A DNA stretch of 64,000 nt, from contig CP085829.1 in assembly GCA_020809705.1 (NCBI GenBank), positions 1,302,001 through 1,366,000 on the forward strand. The letters are read 5' to 3'. The DNA comes from Calonectria ilicicola. Lineage: Eukaryota; Ascomycota; Sordariomycetes; Hypocreales; Nectriaceae. This document shows, piece by piece, positions 40,306-64,000 of the stretch (position 1 is the stretch's first letter; every line of letters begins with the position of its first letter). The notes under the pieces are model-generated. The model ran no database searches and was not told the origin of the DNA. It worked only from the letters and a program-made list of their open reading frames with translations. The position numbers and the translations under genes were made by a program.

Positions 40306-42600
40306 CTATTTGCACCAAATAAGCACGCTAAATCCAATACCAGTGTCTCGCGACGCTAATCTTGTTGCACAAGTAAGACAGCCAATGTTATCCTTCCTGA
40401 CAATCGCGTTTCTGCCCGTTTCTGCGCACCATGCCCTAGCCATAGCATCCTCATTCGACTCTCTAGCATCGATTATTATCAGGCTTTCGCCAGTGGGGAT
40501 CACCGCTCCGTTGTTCAAATCTCGGGCCAACACAATGCGCTGGAAAAGCTTTTCCCGAAGTCGCTCATGGGTTGGATGTTGCGGGCCGAGGATTAGATTG
40601 ACGCACTTGGGCACATGAACAAATACCGGGTTGGAATACAGCGTGAAAGTGATCACTTTTCCATGGCAGTCAAAATCTAGCATAGCTAGATATTGCTGCG
40701 TAGTGTCTGCGGGTGTTGATTTCTCGCTAAGTCGAATGGCCTTGAGCTTGACTCCCGAATCGGTGCTTCCCCCGGGAGATCGTGCTGGCAAATCTCGAGG
40801 CGGGTCCCATTTAGCCGAATCCTTAATCTCTCTCTTAAAAGCCTCTGGATTTTGGAACGCTTCTTCCTCTGTAAGTCCTTGCTCTTCCAAAAATCGGTGA
40901 GCATGATCATTCTGGACTGGATCCACCAAGTTAACAGATCTAGTGCCTATTAGGGCCCAAGAGTCCTCGCGGTCGGCATGCGCAGGTAAAGGTCCAATCC
41001 ATCCACAAGAGGATTTTGCGTCTGTTAAACCGCCAAGAACGCGCCCAATTACCGTAGTCTTTGGCCAGTAGCTCTTCCCTTGAATCACAAGGCCACTCCA
41101 GTAATTAGGGCCAAGTCCTAGCTTTTTGGTGGTCGGGCAGACAACAACTAAGCAGCTTAAGATTCGATGCCTGAAAAACTTTCCAGGCAATATCAATCCA
41201 AAAACCCAATCCAGAAGTGAGGGATGCATTTCACCATCTGGTGATTGGAGTGTGTCACGCAGTCCCTCAATGCTGCGTCTCGCTTCATCCAGATAAGGCC
41301 ATTCAATGGCTTCAGCAAAGCGCAATAGCCCTTCGGCGTGCAATGAGAAATTCGTGGGATTGATATACAATCCGTTATTGACACCTGTCTGTTGAATGGA
41401 GACATTTTGTGTCCAGAGCCTTGCAATAATGGCTAGGGCGTTGACAGATGGACTCGCTTGAATGAAGTTGGTATATCTCGGATCAGATCCCAGTTTCTGC
41501 AACAGGATATCCAACTCTAAGCCAATTTGCATGTGGAATAAGAATTTTTGATGGCCCATCCCAGATTTTCCCATGAAATGCAGGCAGAAAATTTCCATAT
41601 TCTGGAAGTCGAGCAGGCCTTCTGGTGGAGCTACTAAAAGGACAATTTTCTTTGTTGTGGCGGTGGCATTAATAGACCTTTTATCGAATTAGATATGTCT
41701 CGGGAAATAGTTTATGTCAGGCTTACGTTGATAGGGCGAGCAGCTGTTCTATAGTTTGAGTAGAGTCCTGAGTCAGGTTGTTTAGCAATCGTTGGATTTG
41801 TGCAAGTACAGGTGTCACGTCAGTTGGCGGAGGAGACCCTGTAAAGTTTACCGACATGCAAGGTTGTGGCTCCGAGGCTATTTTGTGCCGTCTGTATTCA
41901 TAGGTGTAGCCGTCAATGCTTGTTGTGCCGATGTGATAGCCATCATAGCTAGGGACCATCTCAGGGTCAATATCGAGGAAACTGAGCATAGGTCGCGTTT
42001 TTGGGCGCCAGTAATACCGTTCTAATTCCAGTGAGTAACATATACAAGCCACTAATTATAGCCCGTAACGTACCCCATGATAGAACTATTGTAGGGTTTA
42101 GTGGACGATCCAGCTACATCGACTCAGGAATGCTTTTTCCGACAAAGAATGGGAAAGGTTCAGCTATCTGGTTTGCTCCTTGGATAAGCTAGACATGCAA
42201 TGCACCTTGGCGTTTCCCGGTTACAATGTTCTCGAAGGATGCGGCGAGCTGCTGCCAGCGAGTGAGGTTGGCATTAGGAGTTGAGGCTGGCTGACTAGCG
42301 GGACTGTAGGGTGGTGGCGCCTCGGCTGGCGCATCGAGTGGCTGAGCTACACTCGCCGTTGCAGCTTGAGCTTGGGAATGGGAGACAGTAGATCAGTTTA
42401 ACGAGACTTTGGTGCCAATCGGGAGCTGACATACTGCTTTGGGTGGGAGAAGGCCCTGCTGGAATTGAATTCTGGGTCTGACCCCTGCCATTCAACACAT
42501 TTTGCTGGGGAACAGACGATGATGGTTTCGCAGCATCATCGGACTCCTTATCGGAACCAGATTTCGGGGCCACGCGCGACTTTCTCTTCCAAAACGGCAT
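40306..42600 (-). pseudogene. Conserved-looking hypothetical protein with two in-frame stops
   Basis: Exons 42600-42435, 42370-42074, 42021-41727 and 41677-40306 would give about 709 aa. The basic, low-complexity N-terminus (MPFWKRKSRV) leads into a Pro/Ala-rich stretch, then a mixed alpha/beta body and a C-terminal region with LDFDCHGKVITFTLYSNP and AVIPTGESLIIIDARES. There is no signal peptide or clear membrane segment. In exon 2, TAG at 42189-42191 and TAG at 42114-42116 fall in frame. An alternative intron could remove the first but not the second. The rest of the gene is open and splice sites are clean. I do not recognise the family, so the function is unknown. Confidence 0.55.
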
Positions 42601-49132: not shown

Positions 49133-49626
49133 TTCTCAAATTTCTACTGAAGTGTTATTCTTTAATTAATTTACGGGATTGTTGAAGAAAAACCCCTTCA
49201 CTATCAGCAGAGTGTGGGAAACCATGCGCTAGTTTGAACCAATACCTGAAGTTGATTTTCCTCCCATGTCCTCAGATCAGAGATGATTCTGTACTCATAT
49301 GGTGTTGCAAAAAATACAAGTCCGCAAACTTAGAACCCAGTAATTTTTATGCTTAACTTTTTAAAAACGGCAATAAATATTAATCGACTTTCCAAATTAT
49401 CATATTCGCAGTGTCGTGTTTTGGGTTCTGTTGATCTCTGTCGCTAGCGGCACACGTGATTCCCACTTGGAGCCAGCGGAATATGTATTCCGCCCACCAA
49501 ATGTCTACGCGACTTTCCTCCATTGTTGCGATTCACTGCCTGAGCTTCTTCAAATCCACAAAATTGATTCGATAATATTGTTCATTGGGAAATTAAAGCA
49601 TCTCATTACGTTAATAAAAACGAACC
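49133..49626. other. Promoter region of the Zn2Cys6 gene
   Basis: These 494 bp lie between the NmrA gene and the regulator and contain the palindrome at 49477-49492. No gene was seen. Confidence 0.5.
49477..49492. promoter_or_regulatory. Palindromic site CGGAATATGTATTCCG
   Basis: This perfect palindrome, CGG-N10-CCG with AAT/ATT arms, lies about 135 bp before the regulator start. The same CGGAA-N6-TTCCG design recurs near the transporter, RidA/NmrA and ADH/GH3 promoters. It suggests autoregulation by the Zn2Cys6 protein. Confidence 0.55.
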
Positions 49627-52081
49627 ATGCCGCCAAAATCCAATCCTGGTTCAGCAGAGCAAGCCTTACCCCAAACTGACAGAAAGGTATCCACACCACG
49701 GAACAAGTATGTCTCAAAGGCATGTCAAGCGTGTCGAGGACGAAGAGCAAAGGTGAGAGAAAAATGAAGGACCAGAAGTTTAATCTATCAGGTCAATAAA
49801 GAAGCTCATTATTCTCAGTGTGATGGCAAAACACCCTGCTCGCGATGTTTGAGTCGCAAGCTGAATTGCATTTACACGCCTCAAGATATTCGGCGTGGAA
49901 CTGCTCCCATGGCATATGTTTGCCAACTCCAGGATCGCATCGCTTTGTTGGAGCAGATTCTGTGGCTGCACTCTATAGACATTGATGAGGCCGCCGCCCG
50001 GCTCAAGGAAAAGGAGAAAGCCGCAGCGGCAGAAATGCAGTCATCTATTTCGACGTCTTTGTCAGATCCTGACCAACTTGCTCTTGAGTTTACAGATGGA
50101 CTGAACCTTGATGAGTCATTGGACTATGAGCATGAAGGCGAAACTCGCTACTTTGGCCTAGCGAGTGGCCGACTGGAGTTTTGGCCATTATTAAAAGGTG
50201 ATTCTTGGTAGCGCTCCTGCGAGTTTTCTTTTATTGACACTTGCCTGAAGCTCATGTGGAGAAATATCGAGGAAGACAAAGCCACCACTATGTCTTCTCC
50301 AAATCATCGGACCAACAACCAGACCTTTATTCCTTTGCCATGGAAGGGGCCCCTGAAATCTCCGAAGAGCTTGAATCCCATTTACTAGATTTGTACTTTT
50401 ACTGGGAACAACCATGGGCTCAAATTGTCGATGAACGGCTTTTCCGCCAGAGCAAGGAGAATAACGGTCGTTATTACAGCCCACTTCTACTAAACTGCAT
50501 TCTCGCCACCGGAGCACGGCACTCGGATCGCCCGGAGGTTCGGTCTGACCAGAATGATCCCAATACGGCTGGACGCATGTTCCTAGACACGGCTGAAGTT
50601 TTACTCCATTTCGAACTCAAGGCTCCTAGTATCACCACTCTTCAATCAATGGCGATTCTAGGAACGCTTTATGTCGTGAGTATCGATACCAGAAAAATCC
50701 CATCTCTCTAATTGTTCGTAGGCGTTTGGATACGATGCAGCTGGTTGGTTGTATCAAGGTATGGCGATTAGGCTAGCCCTAGACATGGGCCTAAACTTGG
50801 ATCCTAAAGGCCTAGTCGAATCAAACCGGATCGACTCTGACGAAGCGAGGCTTCGAAGGCAGCTATACTGGACCTTGTTCTCCATCGACAAACTTTCAGC
50901 GAGCTATACAGGTAGAGTATGTACAATGCTGGTATGTTTCATAAAGTTCCCGTTGTTGATGATGGAGCTAAGTTGCCTTTCCATTTATCCAGAGTTCTCA
51001 GGCTATCGTAGCACCCTTGGAGCCCCCGCCCTCAGACACAAATCCATCTGGGACAGCTAGTCATGATCCTGTCTTACTCACCACTCTTCAAAATTCCCTG
51101 GCTAGCCATACACAAATTTTGGAAAAGATTTTATGCAATTTGTAAGTTTACAAACTTGTCGTTGAGAACAAACAGCTCATCATTCAGATACGGCCCAAAG
51201 AGACTCATTCCTCAAATGCAAAGACAATCGTTCTTTGATTCAACCTTGCTCACTCTGAAAGGGTGGTACTACACCCTGTCTCCCGAGTTAAAACCTGGTC
51301 GTTGTGGATCCAAAAATATGTTCCCTCAATCTTATGTCCTGTGCATGGTCTACCATACATCCATCATACTGTTAACGAAACCATTTTTACCAAGCACTGG
51401 TATGTCATATAAACCGGATTCATACGGATCGCAACCTCAATTTAGCCAAAAAGTTGCCAATCTGTGTCTCGATGCTGCGCACCAAATCAGCCATCTAGAT
51501 GACCAGTATAGGGAAGCGTTCGGCAGCTTCCGTAAGAGCCCCCTTACAGCAACGCATTGCAACCTTTCAGCAGTTCTAGCAATCTTGCATCCCATCAATA
51601 ACTCAGGTGGTGAGATCAAACCAGTCCAAATGGAAAGAGTGAATTCCTGCATAAACACATTAAAGGAGCTATCCGAATCATGGACTCCCCCGAAACGTTA
51701 CTATTCCCGAGTTCAGCAAATAGTTCAAGCAAGAACGAGCGAAAGGTCTTCAGGTTCTTCTATAGGATTTGATTTTAACTCTATTGAAGATACTGGGCTT
51801 ATCCATCTTACAGCAAATTCCGCCAATGCAGAAGATGAGACACCACCTCGCCAACTCCACTTACACCAAGATATTAGTGGGGTGACTCACGGTCAGAGTA
51901 AGATATCCCTATCCCCAATCAAAGAAAAAGAAGCCTTTTGCTCATAAAAGATGCATTTTAAGATATCGAATCCACGTCTTTATTTCCTGATTGTCTAAAC
52001 CTGGATATGGTTTTTGACGCACAATATGACGGGTTGGACCTTCATTTTGATTGGGATTTTGACGTAAACCGGCAGAATTAA
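49627..52081 (+). CDS. Zn2Cys6 fungal transcription factor
   Basis: Seven exons (49627-49752, 49819-50197, 50251-50675, 50722-50931, 51002-51141, 51188-51897, 51963-52081) give about 702 aa. The zinc cluster CQACRGRRAKCDGKTPCSRCLSRKLNC spans the first intron, and a leucine-patterned coiled coil (LQDRIALLEQILWL) follows. The middle homology region includes GYDAAGWLYQGMAIRLALDMGLNLD and RRQLYWTLFSIDKLSASYTGR. The C-terminus is acidic and aromatic (LNLDMVFDAQYDGLDLHFDWDF), a likely activation domain. The last two exon joins are my best choice. The dimerising coiled coil fits binding to inverted CGG half-sites such as those found in the neighbouring promoters. It is probably nuclear, regulates the right-hand set, and has no broken codons. 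Confidence 0.82.
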
Positions 52082-52307
52082 TGGAACATTTAATTTAATT
52101 ACAATAATAAGGAGTCTTTCACCTAATTTGTTGGTTGGGGTTGATTGCTTTGTTGTCCTATGCTCGCTATTAATCATCAATCGCTACAGTAAAAAGACCA
52201 CCTGCAACATGTGATACTGCACAACCAACGTAAAACTACGCCAATAAAGAATGAAGATAATGTTTATATAGCTATTCCAACTCGAATGGAATTATGCAGG
52301 CTCTGTA

Positions 52308-53939
52308 TCAAAACTTGCGTGCAGGCGTACGTGCCTCAAACAACTCGTCAAGCTCAGACCAAGATTTTCCCTTTGTTTCTGGTACGACAAAGAAGGCAAC
52401 AGCTCCAAGAATTATCAATGGCCCGAGGAAAATAAGGCCAGTTTTGGGGCCCAGGTTAGCTTCGTCCGCATTGATGAGATATGGAATCGCAACGCTCCAC
52501 CCGAGGTTCACCGCAGCATTGGTTGCAGTGGCAATGGCCGTTGTCTTGGCGCGAAGTCGAGTAGACGAGATTTCTCCAACAAGAGTCCATCCAATTGCCC
52601 CCACGGAAAGAAAATAAAGGATATTCCAGATAATGCTAAAAGTAGCCAAGGCTCTACCATTTCCCCTGGTCCCAACGCCTACCCATCCTAAAACTGACAT
52701 TGCAACTAAGCAGGGAGCCATTCCGTACATACCAAACATGAGCTGTGGGCGCCGGCCTACATGTTCGACAAGGCTAAAGGCGATAATTATGGCAAAAAGA
52801 GATAGTAGCGTTGAAATGATGGTGATGAGAAATGCGTTTGATAAACCAGAGAGGTTCAAGAAGTAGGCTAGATAGTTTCCACATAGCGGATAGCCAGAGA
52901 ATTGTTGCATCACCATGGGAAGACAAGCAAGTAGTGTTCGTCGTAAATCTGCTCCCTTGAAGCAATCAAAATAAGAAACCTTGTCGCTGCTTAGTTCTCG
53001 TTCGTGAGCAACGGTTGCTTTCATAATCTCTAGGTCACCCTGGACAGAATAAGCTGGCTCTTGTCCTCTTAGGGTCACAAGCGCTTTCTCGGCTGCATCG
53101 AATCGTTCGATACTGACGAGATAGTAGGGTGATTCTGGAACAAGAAAGGCGAACAGGACTCCACAGATGACACCAATACCAAACTGAGAGACAATGGCTG
53201 CCTTCCATGACCAGGGCCCGTCAATCTTAGACGTTCCTTCCAGGACGCAAGAAGCTAAGAAAGATCCAAGGGAAATCCAAAATTGGAATAAAGACAACAG
53301 AAACCCTCTGATGTGAACTGGTGCCAGCTCTGAGACATAGGCTGGCGTATTACCTTGCATGAAACCCATGGCCATACCGAAGAGCAATTTAGCGACAACC
53401 CAGACCTTCCAGTTGGGAGAGACTAGCTCGACAACAGTGCCAATCATGGTCAATCTATTTGTCTGTTAGTAGTGGGCTTATTGGTGTATGCCTCTGGCAG
53501 TTACGACATCGCATCATTTTAGAAGAAGGGTAATGGTTACTGACATCAATGTGGTGTAAAAACAGATTCTTCGGCCAAACATGTCATTCAGAGTCCCGAC
53601 AACGAAGGCACCAACTATGGCCGCAACAAATTGGCAGATCGTCCATACAAGTTGTCTGTTCGCCGGTAGAGTCCATGATTCAAGCGTGTCATCGTAAACG
53701 CCAAACTTTTTCACGTATTCTGCGTTTGCGATAATAGACCCGATCAGAGTCAGGTCGTATCCAATTAGCACAGCTAGGCTTGCGCAAGCGAAACAAGCCA
53801 GCGTTGCTCGCCATGATCGTCCAAGTTGGATGAAGTGCTCACGCCACTTCACGGTGACGGACACATTTTCGACATCGCCCACGGTGGCTTCGGGATCTGC
53901 AAGTTTCTCGATTGAGACGGACTCCTTTTCTTTCGACAT
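52308..53939 (-). CDS. MFS sugar-type permease
   Basis: Two exons (53939-53545, 53454-52308; 90-nt intron) give 513 aa. The protein has the sugar-porter signature: GTLNDMFGRR after TM2, PESPYYL near the middle and PETKGKSWSELDELFE at the end, with 12 hydrophobic segments. It resembles fungal alpha-glucoside/maltose-type permeases, but substrates in this family range from sugars to quinate and glucosides. It ends 226 bp from the regulator, converges with it, and shares a promoter region with the second MFS gene. It may import the inducing compound. The gene is intact. Confidence 0.82.
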
Positions 53940-54655
53940 TTCGCGTCAGCCTTAGCGAAGTCCAAATTGAGGAGGAATATTTGAAAGATGACCGTTCAAG
54001 ATAATGAACTGAATTTTAAGGTTTTTCTTGTTAGCGTCGGTCCGAGTTCATGAACAGTGGTGGCTAGCAAAGATGATGTTGTTCAATAGCAAACACCTCT
54101 AAGTTCATCGGTTGCGATCTGCTCCTTTATAACCAATGTTATCTACATCATTCACGCGATTCATGGCTTTCAGCCTATCTAGGTTTCATTTCTGAACTCA
54201 ATAGATAACTCCAATTCCCCCGCGATTATTGAAACTCTCCCCACAGGCTAGTAGATGTCACTTGACATTTTAGCGTGCAGGGGCTACGCGAAGCGGAAAA
54301 TACGTTCCTCGCCCAAGAAAATCGTACCAATCTCGCCAGAAACGCCAAGATCCAGAAGTAGTATTTCATTAGCGGCGGAATATACGCCCCCCCGGCCATC
54401 TTGTCTCAACGATGGGCGGAATTCACGAAGCAGTCGCGACCTCTTGACATTTACACTTCATCCCCTCATTGAATGGTTGTTTAGTCTGCTGAAGAAAGGG
54501 CCTTGATTTCGTTACGATCGATTTATTACGCCTTCAATGGTTCGTCGGGTAAACTGAACTTGCATTCATAAAAGCATTCGGTCACGAATTTTTGATATCT
54601 GCATCAGATTCTCCAGCTGCGCGCCACTAAGAACCAATCTAACCCGACCGGGCCT
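53940..54655. promoter_or_regulatory. Divergent promoter of two MFS genes with CGGAA sites
   Basis: CGGAAAATACGTTCCT (54294-54309) is a one-mismatch copy of the shared palindrome. Further CGGAAT half-sites lie at 54376-54381 and 54417-54422. The region separates the sugar-type permease from the second MFS transporter, so one regulator could serve both. An open frame at 54255-54506 overlaps the sites and looks random. Confidence 0.45.
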
Positions 54656-56538
54656 ATGCCTCGTTTTGAGGTCGGGTCAGCTATGAAGTACAATGCGAGT
54701 CCCCGCACGACGCATCCTCTCGCTACAACAGCCATCGGTCAAATTCTGAGACTTGCTTCGAAGCGAAGGGTTTATCACCACCCTGAGGAACACCCTGATT
54801 TTGACATCAAAGAGCATTATCCGTTCTTTGAAGCACGATCCAAAATCGCCCCCATTCCATGCAAATCATCCGATGAGGTCAATTGTTGCGAAAATTCAGG
54901 ACATGCCAATCCTAAGTCATTCCCAGACCCTGAGATAGAGAACCAAGTAGGCGAATGTCTTCAATCTGAGAGATTAAGAGGGAGCAACGAACCCACAGAC
55001 AAAAGACCACATCTCGAAACTGGCGGAGCAACTGTTACATCAAACCCAAAAAATATCCTTCTCCTGGAAACACAGCCTACTGAAAGCATCATCGTCACAT
55101 GGTACGGTGAAAATGATTCTGAAAACCCGCAAAACTGGAGCCTCTGTCGCAAAATGGTGGTGTATATTATCATCAATTACTGTACGTTTGCAATATATTC
55201 AAGTTCGGCCATTTTCACGCCCTCTATGCTAGAATTGCCTTCTGTTTTTGGCATATCAAAAAATGTTGCAGCCCTTGGCTTAGCCATGTTCGTGTTTGGC
55301 TACGGTTTCGGCCCTCTTCTCGGTGCTCCTCTTTCCGAAGTTCCTGCAATTGGAAGAAACCCTCCATACATTATCAGCCTAACCCTCTTTGTTATCATTG
55401 GTATCCCGACGGCGCTGGCCAAGACCATTCCTTCTTTGATGGCTTTGCGGTTCCTGCAGGGGTTTGTTGGATCCCCAATCCTAGCAACTGGTGGGGCTTC
55501 ATTGGCCGAAGTGACGCATCCTCAGCATGTCACCTTCGCGCTCTATTCATGGGCAATCTTTTCTTTCATCGGCCCTGCTGCTGGACCTATTATTTCTGGC
55601 TATACAATAGCTAACAGTAGCTGGAGATTGCCGCTTTGGGAAATCGTATGGATAACCAGTCCGGCACTGTTGATGTTGGTGGGTTTTCTATCCTTATTTG
55701 CCGTTCTAGAACTATTACTCACTAATTTATCATCGAACAGTTGTTCCTTCCTGAAACATCAGCATCGAGCATTCTATACCAACGAGCAAAGCGATTACGT
55801 GAGCGTACTGGAGATGCACGATTCGTATCATTCACGGACATCAAACAACGCCCCTTCCACGAGGTTCTTATGGACACATTTCTCATTTCTTGGAAGATAA
55901 ATATCCTGGATCCATCCATTCTATTTACCACGCTGTACTGTTCGCTTGTATATGCTATCTACTATCTTTTTTTCGAGGCATTTCCATTAGTCTACATGGA
56001 AATTTATGGTATGCAAGTTGGCGAAATGGGACTGGTCTATCTGTGTATCCCAATTTCGGTGTGTCTTGCAGGTATTCCATATCTGATGTTCGCTCGGCTA
56101 CGTATGCTGGAGAATCAGCGCACTGGCAAAGCCAGACCCCCGGAAGATCGTCTGATACCAGCTCTCTTCGCTTGTCTGACTACGCCTGCGGGTCTATTCA
56201 TTTTCGCATGGACATCTCGTGCAAATATTCATTGGATTGTGCCAACAATCGGCGTGGCCCTTTCCAGCAGCGGCATGGCAATCATTCTCCAGAGTATTTT
56301 TGTGTACATAGCCAACGCTTATCCCCGTTACGCCGCATCCCTCTTTGGCGTGAACGGGTTTATGAAAGCTACCGTCTCAGCTGCAGTAATGCTGGCCGCC
56401 CCTAGTCTGTATGGACACATGGGTATCAGCGGCGGCACATCACTTCTTGGTGGTCTATGCATTCTTTTTATCGCCGGAATATATCCAATTTACTTTTTTG
56501 GGGATTATCTGAGGAAAAAGAGTAAGTTTACTAAGTGA
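54656..56538 (+). CDS. MFS transporter, DHA1 (polyamine/drug exporter)-like
   Basis: Two exons (54656-55678, 55741-56538; 62-nt intron) give 606 aa. About 160 hydrophilic residues come before the conserved W-[...]-DSENPQNWS entry motif of the fungal DHA1 group. Then come 12 hydrophobic segments, with MALRFLQGFVGSPILATGGASLAEV around TM4 and FLPETSASSILYQRAKRLRE at the central loop. These features match TPO/fluconazole-exporter-like proteins. It is divergent from the sugar-type permease and may export a toxic aglycone or end product of the pathway. The gene is intact. Confidence 0.82.
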
Positions 56539-56763
56539 GATGACGGGCATTACCTTCCGTAACTAGTTAGTTGGTGCAAATGGAATAGAAAGAAGAAAGG
56601 AACAAATTATAAGACGGTGCTCTGAAGTGGACTGAAAGAAAGAGAATTTTAGTTTTCTCTCGATTAATAACTTGATAGTAAGAATAGATCTGAATTTGAA
56701 AGTAAAACACCAAATCTGACAACTAGAAATAGGATGATTGTCTAAATATACTCAAAAGGCTGT

Positions 56764-57660
56764 TCACCACCCAAGTTCTGCGGTTTCGAGCATCTTGGCA
56801 AACGTCGTGAGCGGGACTCCAAAAGACTTCAATGCATCAATGTCAACATCGTATCCAACCTCATTTTGCCACATTTGCGATATTATGTCTGCCCTTCCCT
56901 GGGAGGCGAGAGTATCTGCTTCCTGCTGAGCGAGAAATTCAATTTCAACCTTTCTACCAAGTACCGTTTGCAAGAATTCCACGACCTCGCTGATGGTGAG
57001 TTTATCTCCTGCAAGTGGGATATTTTTGCCGTGGTACATTAGAGGCTTGTCAAAAGCATTCGCAGCGAAAATCCCAATATCAATTGAATGGATGAGATTC
57101 ATTTTCGTGTCGGGTTTCAAGGCGACCTGCACGCTTTGGGAGCTCGCCAAGCCGGGGAACAAAAAGTCACACTCGGGATGGCAAAAGTTTTGCATAAAAA
57201 ACGCAGGACGCAGAATGGTCCAGTGCTGAAATCCAGCAGCTCGGACCATGTTTTCAACGGTCTCTTTCTGCCTCCAATACCAGCCTGAGGGATCTTCGTC
57301 ATTCCAACCCGGAAAGTTGCGATGATCTCCAGTGCGAGCCACGCTGGAATGGACCGCTTGCGAAACTCCAATCTCTCGAGCCACATCCAGTACGTTTTTG
57401 GCATACTCTATTTCTGTAAGATAGCCCACGGGAAGAGCTAAAAAGAGGCCATCGCTGCCTTTCATCGCAGCTCGAAGTGCATGTTTGGAATCCAAGCTGC
57501 CTTCATGAACTACAGCACCCAAATCCTGCAGTTTCTTTGCACCCTTAGAAGAGATGTTTCGAGCAAGAGTTGACACCTTGTAACCACGATTTAACAACTG
57601 TATGGCAGTGGCTTGGCCTTGTTTTCCGGTGGCGGTAATGACGCAGATAGATTTAGCCAT
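56764..57660 (-). CDS. NmrA/HSCARG-like NAD(P)-binding protein
   Basis: A single exon of 298 aa starts at MAKSICVITATGKQGQA. This start was preferred over an in-frame ATG 30 bp upstream because the glycine motif follows at once. TATGKQGQATAIQLLNRG, then LFLALP, HSSVARTGDHRNFPGW and WTILRPAFFMQNF are typical of NmrA-like atypical SDRs. This group includes redox-sensing regulators and quinone/aldehyde reductases. It is divergent from the RidA gene over a region with two palindromic sites. The gene is intact. Whether it acts as enzyme or sensor cannot be told. Confidence 0.8.
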   Translation of the reverse strand: MAKSICVITATGKQGQATAIQLLNRGYKVSTLARNISSKGAKKLQDLGAVVHEGSLDSKHALRAAMKGSDGLFLALPVGYLTEIEYAKNVLDVAREIGVSQAVHSSVARTGDHRNFPGWNDEDPSGWYWRQKETVENMVRAAGFQHWTILRPAFFMQNFCHPECDFLFPGLASSQSVQVALKPDTKMNLIHSIDIGIFAANAFDKPLMYHGKNIPLAGDKLTISEVVEFLQTVLGRKVEIEFLAQQEADTLASQGRADIISQMWQNEVGYDVDIDALKSFGVPLTTFAKMLETAELGW

Positions 57661-58487
57661 CGTGAAGCAGATTTTCAGAAGGATGATCAAAATATCTTGA
57701 TCTTATGGACTTGGGAATGCCGAGAAATATTGGGTTTTGATTGTAGAACCATGGTATAAACTGCCTAAGCACCATCCATAGTTATATACTAATTTTCTTT
57801 TTCATCTCAGTCATGGGCTCTTCCATCGTTGTGGAATTGGGCTTGCAAACTCCGCTCCAACTCCGCAGCCAGTACTGACGGCCTTAAGCTTAAATCAACT
57901 ACAAAACCATAATTCTGCATAAAATAAGAACCATAATTTCATTGATTAGATGCACTGTGAAGTCATGCACATGCGAGGTTTCAATTCCTCACCATCGGAC
58001 TGTAGGAGAGATCCGTCACCCCGTTATACTATAATTCATCACATTCAAGTAAATTAACTCGTGCCAAAAGTAGACCATAAAGTGGGGCGCACTAAATTTC
58101 GTGGAGGAATTCACATTCCGCACCACCACAAGGCTCTAGTGGTTCATCGTTGGTTCTTCCCACATGGCCCAGGCACCTAATATCCACACCATGTCAAAGA
58201 TGAAAATCTGAGCTATGAGTAACATCGTACGACTCCGCTTTTCCATTCCATATTCGTATAATAGAACCTGCCGATTATTAGGGCTTCAATTAGAATTCAC
58301 GGTTGCGCGGAATACCCATTCCGCCACAACGATCATATTAGAACCGCCAGGGGACTACGATGCCAAGATTTTCAAACAAACTATACGTCATAAAGTTCCG
58401 AACTGAAAGAACCCTGTCTACTCTCGTCCCATTCCCGCAAAATTCGTCCGAAAACTTGTCCGTACTCCGCTCTCGAAATACGCGACA
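57661..58487. promoter_or_regulatory. Divergent promoter of NmrA and RidA genes with two palindromic sites
   Basis: AGGAATTCACATTCCG (58105-58120) has one mismatch in the left half-site. CGGAATACCCATTCCG (58308-58323) is a perfect CGGAAT-N4-ATTCCG copy. The second lies about 165 bp before the RidA start. Both match the site upstream of the regulator gene. An open frame at 58215-58406 overlaps the second site and is not supported. Confidence 0.55.
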
Positions 58488-58990
58488 ATGGCGCAGCACA
58501 CGTCATGCACATACAAGGGATTTGGCGAGAACATCCTAGAAACACGCTGGTTTTCTCAGGCAGTCCGTGTGGGTGAAAACATTCACCTGGCCGGCCAAGG
58601 TAACCCTTCCATCGGCCTACAGACAGGGGGCAGCTCTCATTATTCAGATGCAGCTAGATTAACACAGTCGTAGGCGGTTGGGATCGAGAAACCGGGGTCT
58701 GCTATCCTGAAATCAATGACCAGATTGATCAGACATTTTTGAACATTGAGCATGCGCTGCAAACTGCAGGTGGAAAAGGCTGGTCTCAGGTTTACAGGGT
58801 CAACTCTTTCCACATTCAGTTGAATGAGGAGAATCAGGAGGCCATGGTGCGCAACTTCAAGAAATATATGCCCGACCATCATTTCGTCTGGACATGTGTC
58901 GGGGTAACAAGATTAGGGGCTGAGGATATGAGGGTCGAAATTGAGGTTTCTGCTTATGATCCAGCGGGCTCAAAAGCGAACGATAAATAA
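58488..58990 (+). CDS. RidA (YjgF/YER057c/UK114) family protein
   Basis: Two exons (58488-58599, 58674-58990; 74-nt intron) give 142 aa. WFSQAVRVGENIHLAGQGGWD leads the fold, and QIDQTFLNIEHALQTAGGKGW and a C-terminal VEIEVSAYD complete the chorismate-mutase-like trimer subunit. The Arg usually found in the RidA active site (R-x-E-I-E-V) is present as MRVEIEV. RidA proteins hydrolyse reactive enamine/imine intermediates to ketones, and some members act on other carbonyl intermediates. Its place in this set hints that a nitrogen-containing or unstable enol intermediate is handled. The gene is intact. Confidence 0.82.
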
Positions 58991-59531
58991 TGAAAAGTCT
59001 CACCTGATGTGAATTCTATTCCGTCCAGTTTAAGGAACAAAATATTCATGAATTATCGGTTGTTATTCCTCGTGATTGATTTAGATTATACACTCGATGG
59101 CCCCCAAATCAGACATAGAGTCCATCATAGGAGTACATTCCTTAGTCATCGTTAGCAGAAAGAACCAAATTTCGCTCTGTCTTGATAGCACTGTTGAATC
59201 TTGCACGCTCTTTGTGTTTGTAGGAGCAAATAAAATGCATCATCTCATATGGATTTAAGAGTAGCTGGGTAGTTGGAGAAGGGACTAGTGCCTAAGTCTA
59301 TCACTGAGGTACCTCTGAAATGAGGTGGAAGTGGTGCGTGGAGCAATGACATGTCCTAAAGAAACATTGAGCAACTCCTCCGCCTTTTATTGGTACGCGA
59401 GTACGACATGCTCAATTAAACCAATAAATGATGAAATATGAGATAGAAATCTATTTAATGCTTTTCTTAAGGGTCTTGAACATCTAAACTCTGTACGCGG
59501 GAAATATGAGCGTTATAGAAGAATGATTTGT
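58991..59531. other. Convergent spacer
   Basis: These 540 AT-rich bases hold the 3' ends of the RidA and alcohol dehydrogenase genes. No gene was seen. Confidence 0.5.
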
Positions 59532-60978
59532 TTACATATCTTCATGGTGAGACAGTCTATCATTCACGCGAACGACAATTTTGCCGTTTATCTCACATTT
59601 GACAAGTCTCTCCATGTACTCTGGAACATCATCCAATCCAACCACCTTGATAGATGGCTTTAGAATTCCTGTGTTGATATATTCCATCACTTGCAATGCT
59701 TGAGAATTTCCACCCATTAATGTGCCGTGTACGTGTAATCCTCTTTCGATCAACTGGGGTAGAGGTATCGTAAAATGCACGTTTCCCCGAGGCACTCTTT
59801 GCAAGTAAATCAGCATTTTTGGCTTGAGCGTTCTTGGATCGTTTGGATATTACCTACCCTGAACACACAATTGTGCCCCCATCACAGACGTATTCCTCTA
59901 ATCTCCTAAACCCACCAAAGCCACTGCTAGTAATGACGATGGCTTCTGCTCCTCTTTTGAATGATCTCTTGGGTCTCAGATTGGCGCATTCTTCGTGCAA
60001 TGAAGTGATGAATTTGTCCCATTCTTCAGCATCTTCAGTCTCAGCCGCTGGAAGAAAAGAGTGGCCAAAATCATTGGCCTCGATCGGCAGAGCATCTATT
60101 TTCCATTTCAAGTCAACACCAATCACCTTCAATCCCAGTGCATTCTTTGCTATGCCACCGGCCATGTGTCCGATTCCTCCCAGGATCCCAACGATGACTA
60201 TTACGTCTCCCGGTCGGGCATTGGTAGATCGCAGAGCCATTAGAGCGGCTGAACCCGAGCAAAGTGCAGTCGTGTAAAGTGAATGATGAGTGCTCGAAGA
60301 CATCAATGAATCCGGTAGTAGTAAAAGACATCGCATTGGTACGGTTGCATACTGCTGGAAGGTGCCTGAGATATGCTTGGATGTATTTAGTTGAAAAGGG
60401 CAAGATGTCGGTAATCCTTTTAAACAGTAAATGCACGTCTGACACGATGTTGCGAGGTAGCGAATTCCAACTGTGCGACCGATTAGGGTTGGATCATGCG
60501 CTTTTACAACCTGCCCAATACCCTCGTGTCCAGCAATATGATCATGCTCTGGGAATCCAGGCTCAGGGCCGACCGAAAAACACGCATCCTATCATACATT
60601 GTGTCAGAGGATTCGTATAGGGGGGTTGCGTCTATTTACGCTTCGACAAATTCCAGTATACTCAATCCTAACGATTGCCTCGTCGATCGCCGGGTCTCTC
60701 ACTGAGATAGATCTGGCTTGTTGGTTCAACTGCGGCCCTAGTTTTGGTGTCACAATGGCCTTTTGAGTGGTGGGCAAGCTAAAGGCGGGATGTTCGTGTG
60801 CGCTCCTGGCCGCCGTATCGAGAGATGAATGCGAAGAAGGTGGTGAACTAGGCGTAAAACCGGGATCCTCGCATTTCCTGCCTACAATGGGCTCATCCGT
60901 CACGAGGGGCAAAAACTCGGAGCTAAGAACTGCGAGTTGTGCGCCAGTGGCTTCTGGCAAAATAGGCTCGGCTGTCAT
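59532..60978 (-). CDS. Zinc-dependent alcohol dehydrogenase with N-terminal extension
   Basis: Exons 60978-60640, 60588-59858 and 59796-59532 (introns 51 and 61 nt) give 444 aa of the medium-chain dehydrogenase family. Catalytic zinc residues are the Cys in TGICRSD and the His in AGHEG. Structural zinc cysteines are in SCQTCIYCLKGLPTSC. The cofactor region is VGILGGIGHMAGG. The end, LIERGLHVHGTLMGGN...GKIVVRVN, is typical of fungal Zn-ADHs. About 70 extra Ser/Pro-rich residues precede the usual TTQKAIV start. They look neither like a clean signal nor a clean mitochondrial peptide. It is divergent from the beta-glucosidase across a region with two palindromic sites. It probably oxidises an alcohol or reduces an aldehyde in the pathway. 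Confidence 0.83.
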
Positions 60979-61393
60979 GGTTGCTTGGGCTTGGGAAAAC
61001 AAAAAGGATGTCAACGAACAACCTAGCGTGTTTGAGACTAGTATATTATATTGATTTCATCCCTGATCTATGTTCCATCCCATATTCCCAAATCAAAAAC
61101 ATTTCGACAATGTCAGATTGATATCAATAGCGGGATGTGATTTCCGCTACATCATAGTGGAGTCTCTTTTCGAGCGGAATGTGTGTTCCGGCGCTACTGT
61201 GATAGCGTTATCCTAATAGGGTGTTAATGAACCCTTTCAAAGTTAGATCAGAGTACCCCCGCGTTGGTATCTAGGTTCGGAATTCATCAGAACCAAGTAG
61301 ACAAGGCTCAGGTTAAATATCAAGTTCAGATCATGTTTCCACTAGGAGACTATACTGGTAATCAAAATCCAGGTTGAATTCGAGCTCAATAAG
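60979..61393. promoter_or_regulatory. Divergent promoter of ADH and GH3 genes with two palindromic sites
   Basis: CGGGATGTGATTTCCG (61131-61146) and CGGAATGTGTGTTCCG (61175-61190) both show CGG-N10-CCG spacing, and the second has the full CGGAA-N6-TTCCG form. Their starts are 44 bp apart, about four helical turns, which would suit side-by-side binding of two dimers. Confidence 0.55.
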
Positions 61394-64000
61394 ATGGCCA
61401 AAGAGAAGATCAGTGCCTTGCTGGCACAGCTAACGCTCGAGGAGAAGCTTTCCCTACTCGCTGGCGAATCAACGTGGCGTACTGCAGCCGTTGACCGCCT
61501 TGGAATCCCAAGGCTCAAGGTAAGTGCAGTGATATTTCATGAAAATTCTAAGGCGTCGTAATTATATTTTATTCATGTGTTCTGATAGTTTACAGGTCAC
61601 GGATGGCCCCTCCGGAGCTCGAGGGCAGGTCTTCGGGGAGAGCACCCCCGCTGCTTTCTTCCCAAGTGGTGTTAGCATGGGTGCCACATGGGATGTGGAT
61701 TTGATGTATGAACTTGGACAGATGTTTGCAGAAGAGGCAAGTACTAGTTCACATCTCTGAAATGTATGCCAGCTGACTGCTGTAAAAGACCAAGTCCAAA
61801 TCGGCTTCAGTCCTCTTAGCACCCACCATGTGCATCCAACGGCACCCACTTGGTGGCCGAAACTTTGAATCCTTTAGTGAAGACCCCTTTCTTACTGGAA
61901 AGCTTGCTATAGCTCATATTCGGGGTTTACAATCGCGAGGAATTGGTGCGACAGCCAAACACTTTGTTGGTCGGTATTCTCTCTCTTTGGGGTTAGGGTT
62001 AGGGTTATCTTCTTGGAATCTTTGCTAACACCACCATCAGCGAATGACCAAGAAACTGATCGATTTCATGTGGATGTCAAGGTTTCCCCTCGTGCATTGC
62101 GTGAAGTTTATTTGCTCCCTTTCCAGATGGCTGTCCGTGACGCCGACCCATGGTGCATAATGACCGCATATCAAAAGGTCAACGGGCATCATTGCGATTC
62201 ATCCAAAGAGCTGATGACGGACATTGTAAGAAACGAATGGGGTTGGGAAGGGGTATTTATGAGCGATTGGGGCGGCACAAACTCCAGCGTTGAAGCCATC
62301 AATGCGGGGCTAGATCTCGAGATGCCAGGCCCGCCTGTGAAGAGATCACAAGTGGCTTTGGAACAACCCTTGAAAGATAATCTTGTCAATCTTGGTCGTA
62401 TAGATGAGTCTGCGGGTCGAATTCTTGCTCTCCTGCAAAAAGCTGGACGATTTGAGGATCCTCACGACGACCCGGAATACTGTCGCGACGACCCCGCAAC
62501 AAAACAACTGCTTCTTCGAGCTGCAAGTGAAGGAATTGTCATGCTCAAGAATGACGATGCTATGCCAATCAGCCCCGCTGGAAATATCAAGAAATTGGCT
62601 ATTGTTGGGCCCAATGCAAAGCGCGTAGTTGCTGGCGGTGGTGGTAGTGCCTACATCAAGGCGCCTTATTGGACCTCCGTATTCGACTCGGTCAAGGATG
62701 CCTTTGAAGGGACCTCGACCGAAATAATCTTTTCGGAGGGAGCCAAAGTCAACAGGAATCTTCCAACGGCTAGCATAGCAGTTGCAAAAAATCCCGACAC
62801 CGGAAAAGGCGGCGCCGCTATCGACTGGTTCCTCGGTCACGATTTCAACAGCCCCATCGTGGCAACAACACACACGTAAGTGCCGTCTGAATCGTCAGAT
62901 AACACTGAAGCTAATTTTTCCAAGTGATGACTTATACTATATGACCTTTGGAGCAGTTCCTCCTGAAGTAAGCCGCGAGACGGGATACTCTTACAAGGTC
63001 CGATCCACTTTGACACCATTGACTTCTGGTACCCACAAGATTTCCTTCGCATCGATAGGACCTTCGAAGTTATACATAGACGGCAAGTTGATCTGTGAAA
63101 ACCTCAGTGTATTTGATGACCGAGGTAATTTATTTTTCAACTACGGCTGTGATGAAAGAATGGTACCCATGGAGATGGTTGGCGGACAAGCATATGAGGT
63201 CCTAATTGAGTACCACTCTCACGACAGACAACTAAACGAGGAACTCATCCCGTTCATGCTTCCGATGGAGGATAAATTTCAAGGCATTAGATTGGGATTT
63301 GAAGAATATAATCCCTCTGATCTTCCTTCCGAAGCAGCGAGCATTGCCAGTCAATGCGATGTTGCTATCGTGGTCGTGGGCCGGGATAAGGAATGGGAGA
63401 CAGAGGGTCAAGACATTCCTCTTTTTGAGCTCCCTGGGGATCAGGTCAAATTGATCGAGGAAGTTTCCGCAATCTGCAAGCGAACAATTGTCATTGTTCA
63501 GGCCGGCACTCCTGTGCAAATGGAGCCATGGATCAATGATGTCCAAGGCGTGTTGTACACCTGGTATCAGGGTCAAGAACTAGGGAATGCAGCTGCCGCA
63601 GTTCTGACTGGCAAGGTCAATCCATCTGGCCGTCTCCCCATGACATTCCCAAAGAGGATAGAAGATACGCCCGCGTATTCTTCCTTTCCTGCGGAATCTC
63701 GCGAGACTTACTATTCAGAAGGGCTGTATGTCGGGTACAAATGGTGGGATCTCCTGGGGACTCGTCCCTTGTTTCCGATTGGATTTGGTCTCTCTTTCAA
63801 TGACTTCTTAGTCTCTGCGGAAACTATCAGCTCTACAACTCTGCTCAAAGACAGCACCATAACCCTGTCGATCAAGATTCGAAATACAGGGGGAAGCCAA
63901 ATTCCAGGGCGGCAGGCAGTAATCGCCTGGGTCTCTCAATGTTCACCAAGACGCCTTGTAAGGCCAATCAAGCAAATATGCGGTTTTGTCAAGTCTAAAT
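61394..64000 (+). CDS. GH3 beta-glucosidase with PA14 domain (3' end outside window)
   Basis: Exons 61394-61519, 61596-61736, 61789-61969, 62041-62875 and from 62925 read cleanly to the window edge. The start MAKEKISALLAQLTLEEKLSLLAGE has no signal peptide, so the enzyme is probably intracellular. GH3 motifs: VTDGPSGARG, HPLGGRNFESFSEDP, the nucleophile Asp in MSDWGG, then the second domain with VVVGRDKEWETEGQD and RLPMTFPKR. A PA14 insert (YYMTFGAVPPE...SKLYIDGK) lies between them. Intron 2 (61737-61788) is GC-AG (GCAAGT). Intron 3 (61970-62040) contains telomere-type repeats. Such enzymes split glucose from aryl or alkyl glucosides, which fits a set with a sugar-type permease. Confidence 0.88.
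61989..62007 (+). repeat. Interstitial telomere-type repeat inside an intron
   Basis: GGGGTTAGGGTTAGGGTTA, three TTAGGG-type units, fills the middle of the third intron of the GH3 gene (61970-62040). It is in the same orientation as the copy at 738-752. Confidence 0.85.

Follow-up and report, generated by a model that had tools for sequence, protein, structure and literature searches.

The window examined here is a stretch of 64,000 nucleotides from the fungus Calonectria ilicicola (assembly GCA_020809705.1, contig CP085829.1, bases 1302001-1366000 of the forward strand; this is contig 5, or 'C5', of the 12 contigs, 69.93 Mb in all, that were scanned). Its right-hand part encodes a Zn2Cys6 regulator and, beside it, three divergent gene pairs: two MFS transporters, one of them a sugar transporter; an NmrA-like protein and a RidA-family protein; and an alcohol dehydrogenase (ADH) and a GH3 glycosidase. 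A palindrome picked out by eye, CGGAA-N6-TTCCG (the 'box'), recurs in the promoters of this set, and again at related genes on other contigs. In our estimate, with a probability of about 0.8, the box, in the refined form CGGAA(T)-N-YR-NN-TTCC(G/T) (Y = pyrimidine; R = purine), is the putative operator of a paralogous family of autoregulated Zn2Cys6 activators that control dispersed glycoside-uptake/RidA modules. Its presence 5' of the regulator, of the six neighbours, and of regulator and RidA paralogues makes it very probably the regulator's binding site, and its bearers a scattered gene network. A motif noticed by eye has become a testable putative operator. With the consensus, orthologous promoters can be searched straight away and targets and inducers predicted.

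Boxes in the window

The segment from 49477 to 61190 contains three exact boxes and three with one mismatch, and all six lie in 5' regions (Table 1). Every one of the three divergent promoters carries a box, as does the regulator's own promoter. The initial annotation had located all six correctly, had placed them in non-coding DNA, and had seen no full copies elsewhere; the gene models contain none of the six, and beyond the three exact boxes the 64 kb contain no other exact copy. The box at 49477 falls inside a stop-to-stop frame of 100 amino acids that is otherwise devoid of signs of a gene, and the other five lie outside frames of 100 amino acids or more. When spacers of 0-20 were examined in the four 5' regions, CGGAA and TTCC were found paired at a spacer of 6 only. 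The window has four other one-mismatch sites (11650, 24087, 42126 and 42552), three of them inside frames of at least 144 amino acids. The site at 42126, in the left half (CGGAAAAAGCATTCCT on the minus strand), is outside frames of at least 100 amino acids and has no YR centre.

The box is unusual in where it lies rather than in how often it occurs. The genome has 47 exact boxes and 1420 with up to one mismatch; the reversed control pattern outnumbers them, at 109 and 2317, and we rejected any argument from over-representation in the genome count. Within the 11.7-kb segment, the three exact boxes compare with 0.008 expected, and the six with up to one mismatch with 0.24; in the four 5' regions, 2451 bp in total, the expectation for those six is 0.05. 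The genome scan proposed in the initial annotation thus found the strict box locally enriched, and the objection of random density fails. The chance of such a cluster anywhere in the genome is ~0.009 at up to one mismatch and ~0.0015 for three exact boxes in 11.7 kb. Neither figure allows for the choice of the motif from this very window, which makes the second a weak argument by itself. Looser definitions were dropped, the counts in the window being within chance: with up to two mismatches there are 33 sites, against 25 +/- 5.4 in shuffles (6 of 100 shuffles reach 33), and bare CGG-N10-CCG occurs 11 times against 7.3 expected (14 of 100 shuffles).

Boxes at paralogous regulators and RidA genes

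Paralogues of the regulator were picked by protein similarity among 63 of 268 candidates scored, a scope that applies to all statements about regulator homologues below, and their 5' DNA was fetched afterwards; the scan for exact boxes had, however, already shown one 8 kb away from the C5 copy. Three are clearly closest: C3:3021077-3023011, C5:52024-61000 and C1:8293564-8295629 (C1, C3, etc. denote contigs). All three carry a CGGAATN5TTCCT box 5' of the gene, and that of the C3 paralogue has the same 16 bases as the window box at 58105, read on the minus strand. A fourth relative, C7:2199k, is a remnant that retains only its two ends; a box separates it from a divergent RidA gene, and a sugar transporter is preceded by two others. 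Together with the box in the regulator's own promoter (49477), the boxes at the closest paralogues favor the autoregulation that the initial annotation had suggested.

The RidA genes tell a similar story. A search of the genome with the window RidA returned 14 genes (16 rows), of which nine, all but five distant ones, could be judged by their 5' DNA. Ranked by E-value, six of the seven closest, the window gene included, have a box within ~350 bp 5'. Lower down, no box was present in the 650 bp fetched at C6:213k (45% identity), ~450 bp of it 5' of the start codon, or in the 700 bp fetched at C10:320k (41%), where the start codon was not found. The box thus marks a regulon as had been proposed, recurring 5' of three of three closest regulator paralogues and five of the six next-closest RidA genes. 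Nor would the regulon be confined to the right-hand cluster of the window: on other contigs the same box stands at paralogous modules and at RidA genes.

Other genes of the module have relatives in the same places. The closest paralogues of the GH3 gene, C5:63406 (62%) and C1:8297870 (59%), lie within 10 kb of regulator paralogues, and that of the sugar transporter, C1:8285232-8286747 (60%), is ~7 kb from one. NmrA has no close paralogue in the genome (best 34%) and the second MFS transporter has no module paralogue above 28-30%, so that neither gives a test of the regulon.

For statistical purposes, module intervals were taken as ~10 kb round the regulator matches (C3, C5, C1 and C7) plus the RidA matches of at least 48% identity, together 0.27% of the genome once the window module is left out. 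Four of the 44 exact sites outside the window fall inside these intervals, against 0.12 expected (p 7e-6, an optimistic value, see below). The pattern CGGAATN5TTCCW, with a genome total of only 80 (reversed control, 50), places six of 79 sites there, against 0.22 expected (p 1e-7, likewise optimistic).

It does not follow that every exact box marks a member of the regulon, a proposition that we rejected. The 32 loci retrieved around exact sites beyond the window, of which 15 span just 3 kb, cover 33 of the 44 sites, the remaining 11 not having been fetched. Tblastn with seven window proteins found module genes at only three of the 32 (L022, L024 and L030). In 14 loci of ~10 kb (138.6 kb) that have an exact site and no module gene there are three one-mismatch boxes and a second exact box, and these four additional boxes are about what the genome rate predicts (2.8).

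Two of the three loci deserve description. L024 (C5:65000-74900) adjoins the C5 regulator and GH3 paralogues and carries four boxes with nitrilase-type, MFS, cupin and RidA genes, and is thus a further module of different make-up that shares the box. The nitrilase-type hydrolase belongs to PF00795; its pieces also match the Nit6803 model, though below cutoff. The cupin has a weak match to mandelonitrile lyase (24 bits; cutoff 140). The two enzymes make nitrile-bearing glycosides a lead, no more. In L022 (C6:290000-299900), an exact box separates the RidA gene from a divergently oriented permease of NCS1 type (its NCBIfam match is below cutoff). No regulator homologue was found nearby among the candidates scored, and none of eight other genome matches of the permease lies within 10 kb of an exact, CGGAATN5TTCCW or CGGAANNYRNNTTCCK site.

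Consensus of the box

A better rendering of the box is CGGAA(T)-N-YR-NN-TTCC(G/T), with G/T at the end because one outer base is often T. Among the 20 module boxes the last G is kept in nine, and is T in nine, C in one and A in one. The central YR (pyrimidine-purine) step occurs in 18 of the 20. In the combined lists of exact and CGGAATN5TTCCW sites, window included, which were compiled with patterns that did not specify YR, it is present at 13 of 14 module sites vs 27 of 113 elsewhere (Fisher p 7e-7, again optimistic). The combined pattern CGGAANNYRNNTTCCK matches 53 distinct places genome-wide, 14 of them in modules (10 of 49 once the window module is excluded); its RY version matches 37 places, none in modules.

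The CGG-N10-CCG geometry stressed in the initial annotation holds in part. The inverted triplets stand 10 bp apart in four of the six window boxes and in nine of the 20 module boxes; the boxes at 54294 and 58105 each lack one triplet. Nor is this geometry what distinguishes the promoters: as a dyad, CGG-N10-CCG is found in seven of 14 module promoters and ranks 2453 of 42663, whereas four dyads derived from the box head the ranking and are present in all 14. This ranking is partly circular because several of the 14 promoters came from loci fetched for a box.

The regulator and its known counterparts

The regulator has the domains of a Gal4-type (Zn2Cys6) transcription factor. Its Zn2Cys6 cluster (PF00172, residues 31-64) scores 35 bits against a cutoff of 21, and its Fungal_trans middle homology region (PF04082) 92 bits against 23. 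The predicted heptad helix that follows the linker has a hydrophobic a/d pattern, V76 L79 I83 L86 L90, read off the sequence. The protein aligns with P0001 across most of its length (51% identity), and matches Lac9, Ppr1, Gal4 and Put3 in the PDB. The matches that reach furthest into linker and helix are to Ppr1 (1pyi, residues 31-98) and then Gal4 (31-92). The spacing of the box is compatible with binding by a coiled-coil dimer.

Among known systems, Put3, the yeast activator of proline utilization, is a Zn2Cys6 protein with a coiled coil that forms a homodimer, as the window regulator is predicted to do, and it is matched by the regulator in two structures (1zme and 1ajy). Put3 binds inverted CGG triplets 10 bp apart. 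It differs in that the match to its chains ends at residue 81, early in the helix; in that the outer base of the window box is G or T and the inner arm AA(T); and in the set of genes. The likeness to yeast Ppr1 (1pyi) runs through linker and helix. Ppr1 and Aspergillus UaY, which regulate pyrimidine and purine genes, use CGG/CCG sites with a 6-bp spacer, vs 10 bp between CGG and CCG in the window box. A more general parallel is with the pathway-specific Zn2Cys6 regulators of fungal catabolic clusters, which commonly sit beside their targets and have CGG palindromes in the promoters. Here, too, the putative targets lie beside the regulator, and a box is present in each divergent promoter and in the regulator's own; the difference is that the box also occurs at paralogous modules and at single RidA genes on other contigs.

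That Zn2Cys6 dimers, Put3 named among them, bind paired CGG triplets as homodimers is noted in PMC5559640, and PMC6080790 describes Put3 as constitutively bound and the linker of Zn2Cys6 proteins as having a role in spacing. A CGG-N10-CCG stretch is mentioned, for another promoter, in PMC5215518. Searches on the box, its spacing, autoregulation, RidA/L-PSP with Zn2Cys6, and 2-aminomuconate deaminase clusters found no account of this box or regulon in a literature that took in few subscription papers. Regulation of clusters by Zn2Cys6 proteins is of a known kind, then; this operator and regulon are undescribed in the literature searched.

Mechanism and alternative explanations

We envisage that the window regulator most likely binds as a homodimer, by way of its zinc cluster and heptad helix, and that the dimer would read two facing CGGAA half-sites, the first preferably followed by T, on either side of a central YR step. 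Through the box it would control itself and the three divergent pairs, sugar MFS/MFS, NmrA/RidA and ADH/GH3, presumably as an activator. The module might then import a beta-glycoside, which the GH3-PA14 enzyme would cleave. ADH, NmrA and RidA would process both the aglycone, by oxidation or reduction, and a reactive imine or enamine, which RidA would remove. Fungal RidA-family proteins are often viewed as housekeeping imine deaminases; the arrangement here ties genes of this family to specific catabolic modules.

Several findings weigh against this interpretation. Forty of the 47 exact sites are away from module genes. Some hits were already known when the module intervals and identity cut-offs were fixed, and it was in the module sites themselves that the YR step came to notice, so that the p values for all of these are optimistic. 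At C5:70415, the RidA gene that ranks sixth by E-value (48% identity to the window RidA in the overall search, 53% over 97 residues in tblastn), the first 1197 bp 5' are free of boxes, and one lies ~0.3 kb 3'. Ppr1 and Gal4, to which the furthest-reaching structural matches are made, use site spacers of 6 and 11 bp, respectively, not 10. Three of the five box-bearing regulators look broken, the two that look unbroken in the parts read being the window regulator (49627-52081) and C3; and in other fungi, as described below, regulator and RidA frequently lie apart, with at least 20 further species present in both lists of relatives having the two on different longest contigs.

The breakage takes several forms. 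The C5 copy (L037/L039, C5:56000-63500) is split by a retrotransposon-like frame of ~1200 amino acids (L039:2-3595) that has an SH3_retrovirus (retrotransposon SH3-like) domain and looks copia-like by eye; the GH3 neighbour and the box are still present. The C1 copy (L038, C1:8295100-8298000) has an in-frame stop in the linker between zinc cluster and helix, and GH3 and sugar-MFS paralogues lie less than 10 kb away. Boxes thus persist round broken regulators and, if these boxes are still functional, a surviving regulator must serve them in trans. It is conceivable, although we would put it somewhat short of even odds, that one operator unites at least seven loci centred on RidA, that whole-looking regulators (the window's, possibly C3's) act in trans on the modules with broken ones (C5:52-75k, C1 and C7), and that the specificity is kept across the fungal family as a general 'glycoside import plus imine clean-up' regulon of filamentous fungi.

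The most serious alternative, which we consider improbable, makes the linked regulator a mere target and assigns the box to some other, unlinked transcription factor, whether of the Zn2Cys6 class or of a general kind. Such a factor would account for the boxes 5' of RidA genes with no regulator homologue nearby among the candidates scored (C6:294k and C10:1017k), and for the many exact sites elsewhere, most of which are unlinked to the regulator family. Against it, the box lies 5' of all four closest regulators (window, C3, C5 and C1) and at the C7 remnant, as an autoregulated family predicts, and the recognition segment is nearly constant in the 24 aligned regulator sequences. That the boxes are functionless leftovers of the shared ancestry of duplicated modules is very unlikely. 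The modules are indeed paralogous (GH3, 59-62%; regulator, about 34-64% by stretch; sugar MFS, 60%; RidA, 51-68%), but neutral DNA at such divergence is expected to lose 16-bp matches, and the promoters are otherwise unalignable (the best match overlapping no box has an E-value of 0.16), while the boxes shift in position and number and keep the YR centre. Simple chance is less credible still: the CGG palindrome was chosen by eye from one window, its looser versions are not enriched there and its genome count is below that of the reversed control, but four of 44 exact sites in 0.27% of the genome, three of three regulator paralogues and five of six further close RidA genes are hard to obtain by accident.

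Relatives in other fungi

Relatives of the regulator are widespread in fungi. Among the matches listed, the best are 51-52% identical and come from Ilyonectria robusta, Truncatella, Dactylonectria, Aspergillus and Fusarium, and the public relatives keep the same recognition segment and linker. The segment round C-x-E/A-C-R-x-R-R-x-K-C is nearly constant in 24 aligned sequences (26 were tried; two were left out, their cluster being outside the search pattern). Public homologues (Ilyonectria, Dactylonectria, Aspergillus, Fusarium, Metarhizium and others) are named as hypothetical proteins, generic C6 factors, or automatic transfers of nirA/nit-4, with no binding site attached. An apparently unstudied, widespread Zn2Cys6 family would thereby be linked to a candidate binding site.

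Linkage of regulator and RidA is not peculiar to this genome, though it is far from universal. When the best 120 of 198 regulator rows were compared with the best 120 of 427 RidA rows, at least nine row pairs shared species and longest contig: Aspergillus granulosus, A. spectabilis, A. wentii DTO 134E9, Lipomyces kononenkoae, Stagonosporopsis vannaccii, Phlyctema vagabunda, Annulohypoxylon moriforme, Clonostachys rosea and Talaromyces rugulosus. Four of the nine shared contigs are shorter than 170 kb; sharing on megabase contigs could be chance, except in T. rugulosus, where the pair has consecutive locus tags (TRUGW13939_10572/_10573). These pairs, along with P0074 from Aspergillus udagawae, point to linkage beyond this genome; P0074 is a single gene model with a RidA domain, zinc cluster and Fungal_trans, either a fusion or a mis-joined neighbour.

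Features of the window and minor observations

Table 1. Boxes and genes of the window module, and boxes at paralogous genes elsewhere in the genome
Feature	Position	Strand	Remarks
Box O1, exact	49477..49492	.	CGGAATATGTATTCCG; 134 bp 5' of regulator start codon; putative autoregulation
Regulator	49627..52081	+	Gene model, 705 amino acids, 7 exons; Zn2Cys6 cluster, linker, heptad helix, Fungal_trans, acidic C-terminus
Sugar transporter (MFS)	52308..53939	-	Gene model, Pfam (PF00083); 513 amino acids, one intron with alternative borders
Sugar MFS/MFS divergent promoter	53940-54655		From gene models
Box O2, 1 mismatch	54294..54309	+	CGGAAAATACGTTCCT, ends CCT; divergent promoter of both MFS genes
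Two extra CGGAAT half-sites (54376, 54417)	54376..54422	+	Same promoter as O2
Second MFS transporter	54656..56538	+	PF07690 on first exon; second exon alone matched no Pfam family
NmrA-like NAD(P)-binding protein	56764..57660	-	Gene model, Pfam; 298 amino acids, single exon
NmrA/RidA divergent promoter	57661-58487		From gene models
Box O3, 1 mismatch	58105..58120	-	CGGAATGTGAATTCCT on minus strand (starts AGG on plus); NmrA/RidA promoter
Box O4, exact	58308..58323	.	164 bp 5' of RidA start codon; NmrA/RidA promoter
RidA/YjgF-family protein	58488..58990	+	Gene model, Pfam (PF01042); 142-144 amino acids depending on intron border
Zinc-type ADH	59532..60978	-	PF08240; one intron placed, second inferred from frame change
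ADH/GH3 divergent promoter	60979-61393		From gene models
Box O5, 1 mismatch	61131..61146	-	CGGGA arm; ADH/GH3 promoter
Box O6, exact	61175..61190	.	ADH/GH3 promoter
GH3 glycosidase	61394..64000	+	PA14 insert, Fn3-like end; extends ~200 bp beyond window
Box of C3 regulator paralogue			CGGAATGTGAATTCCT; 622 bp before start codon
Box of C5 (C5:61k) regulator paralogue			CGGAATATAGTTTCCT; 87 bp before start codon
Box of C1 regulator paralogue			CGGAATCCAGTTTCCT; 138 bp before start codon
Box of C6:294k RidA, exact	C6:294047		247 bp before start codon
Box of C7:2198k RidA	C7:2198908		CGGAACCTAAATTCCT; 213 bp before start codon
Box of C5:5935k RidA	in L041		AGGAACATTCTTTCCG; 344 bp before start codon
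Box of C5:5912k RidA, exact	C5:5912133		Roughly 200-250 bp before start codon, the latter estimated from match coordinates only
Box of C10:1017k RidA	C10:1017771		CGGAATCTAAATTCCT; roughly 200-250 bp before start codon, the latter estimated from match coordinates only

The window RidA scores 67.8 bits with PF01042 (cutoff 27.3), and 39.7 bits with the NCBIfam Rid-family model TIGR00004, below its cutoff of 106. In the GH3 enzyme the N and C domains, PA14 and the Fn3-like part were all found, as in the beta-glucosidase-type members of the family that have PA14. Just downstream of this gene (L016:2662-4858, window ~64662-66858) are a glutathione-transferase-type frame, by eye a maleylacetoacetate isomerase, and a fumarylacetoacetase frame (PF09298/PF01557), with no box there.

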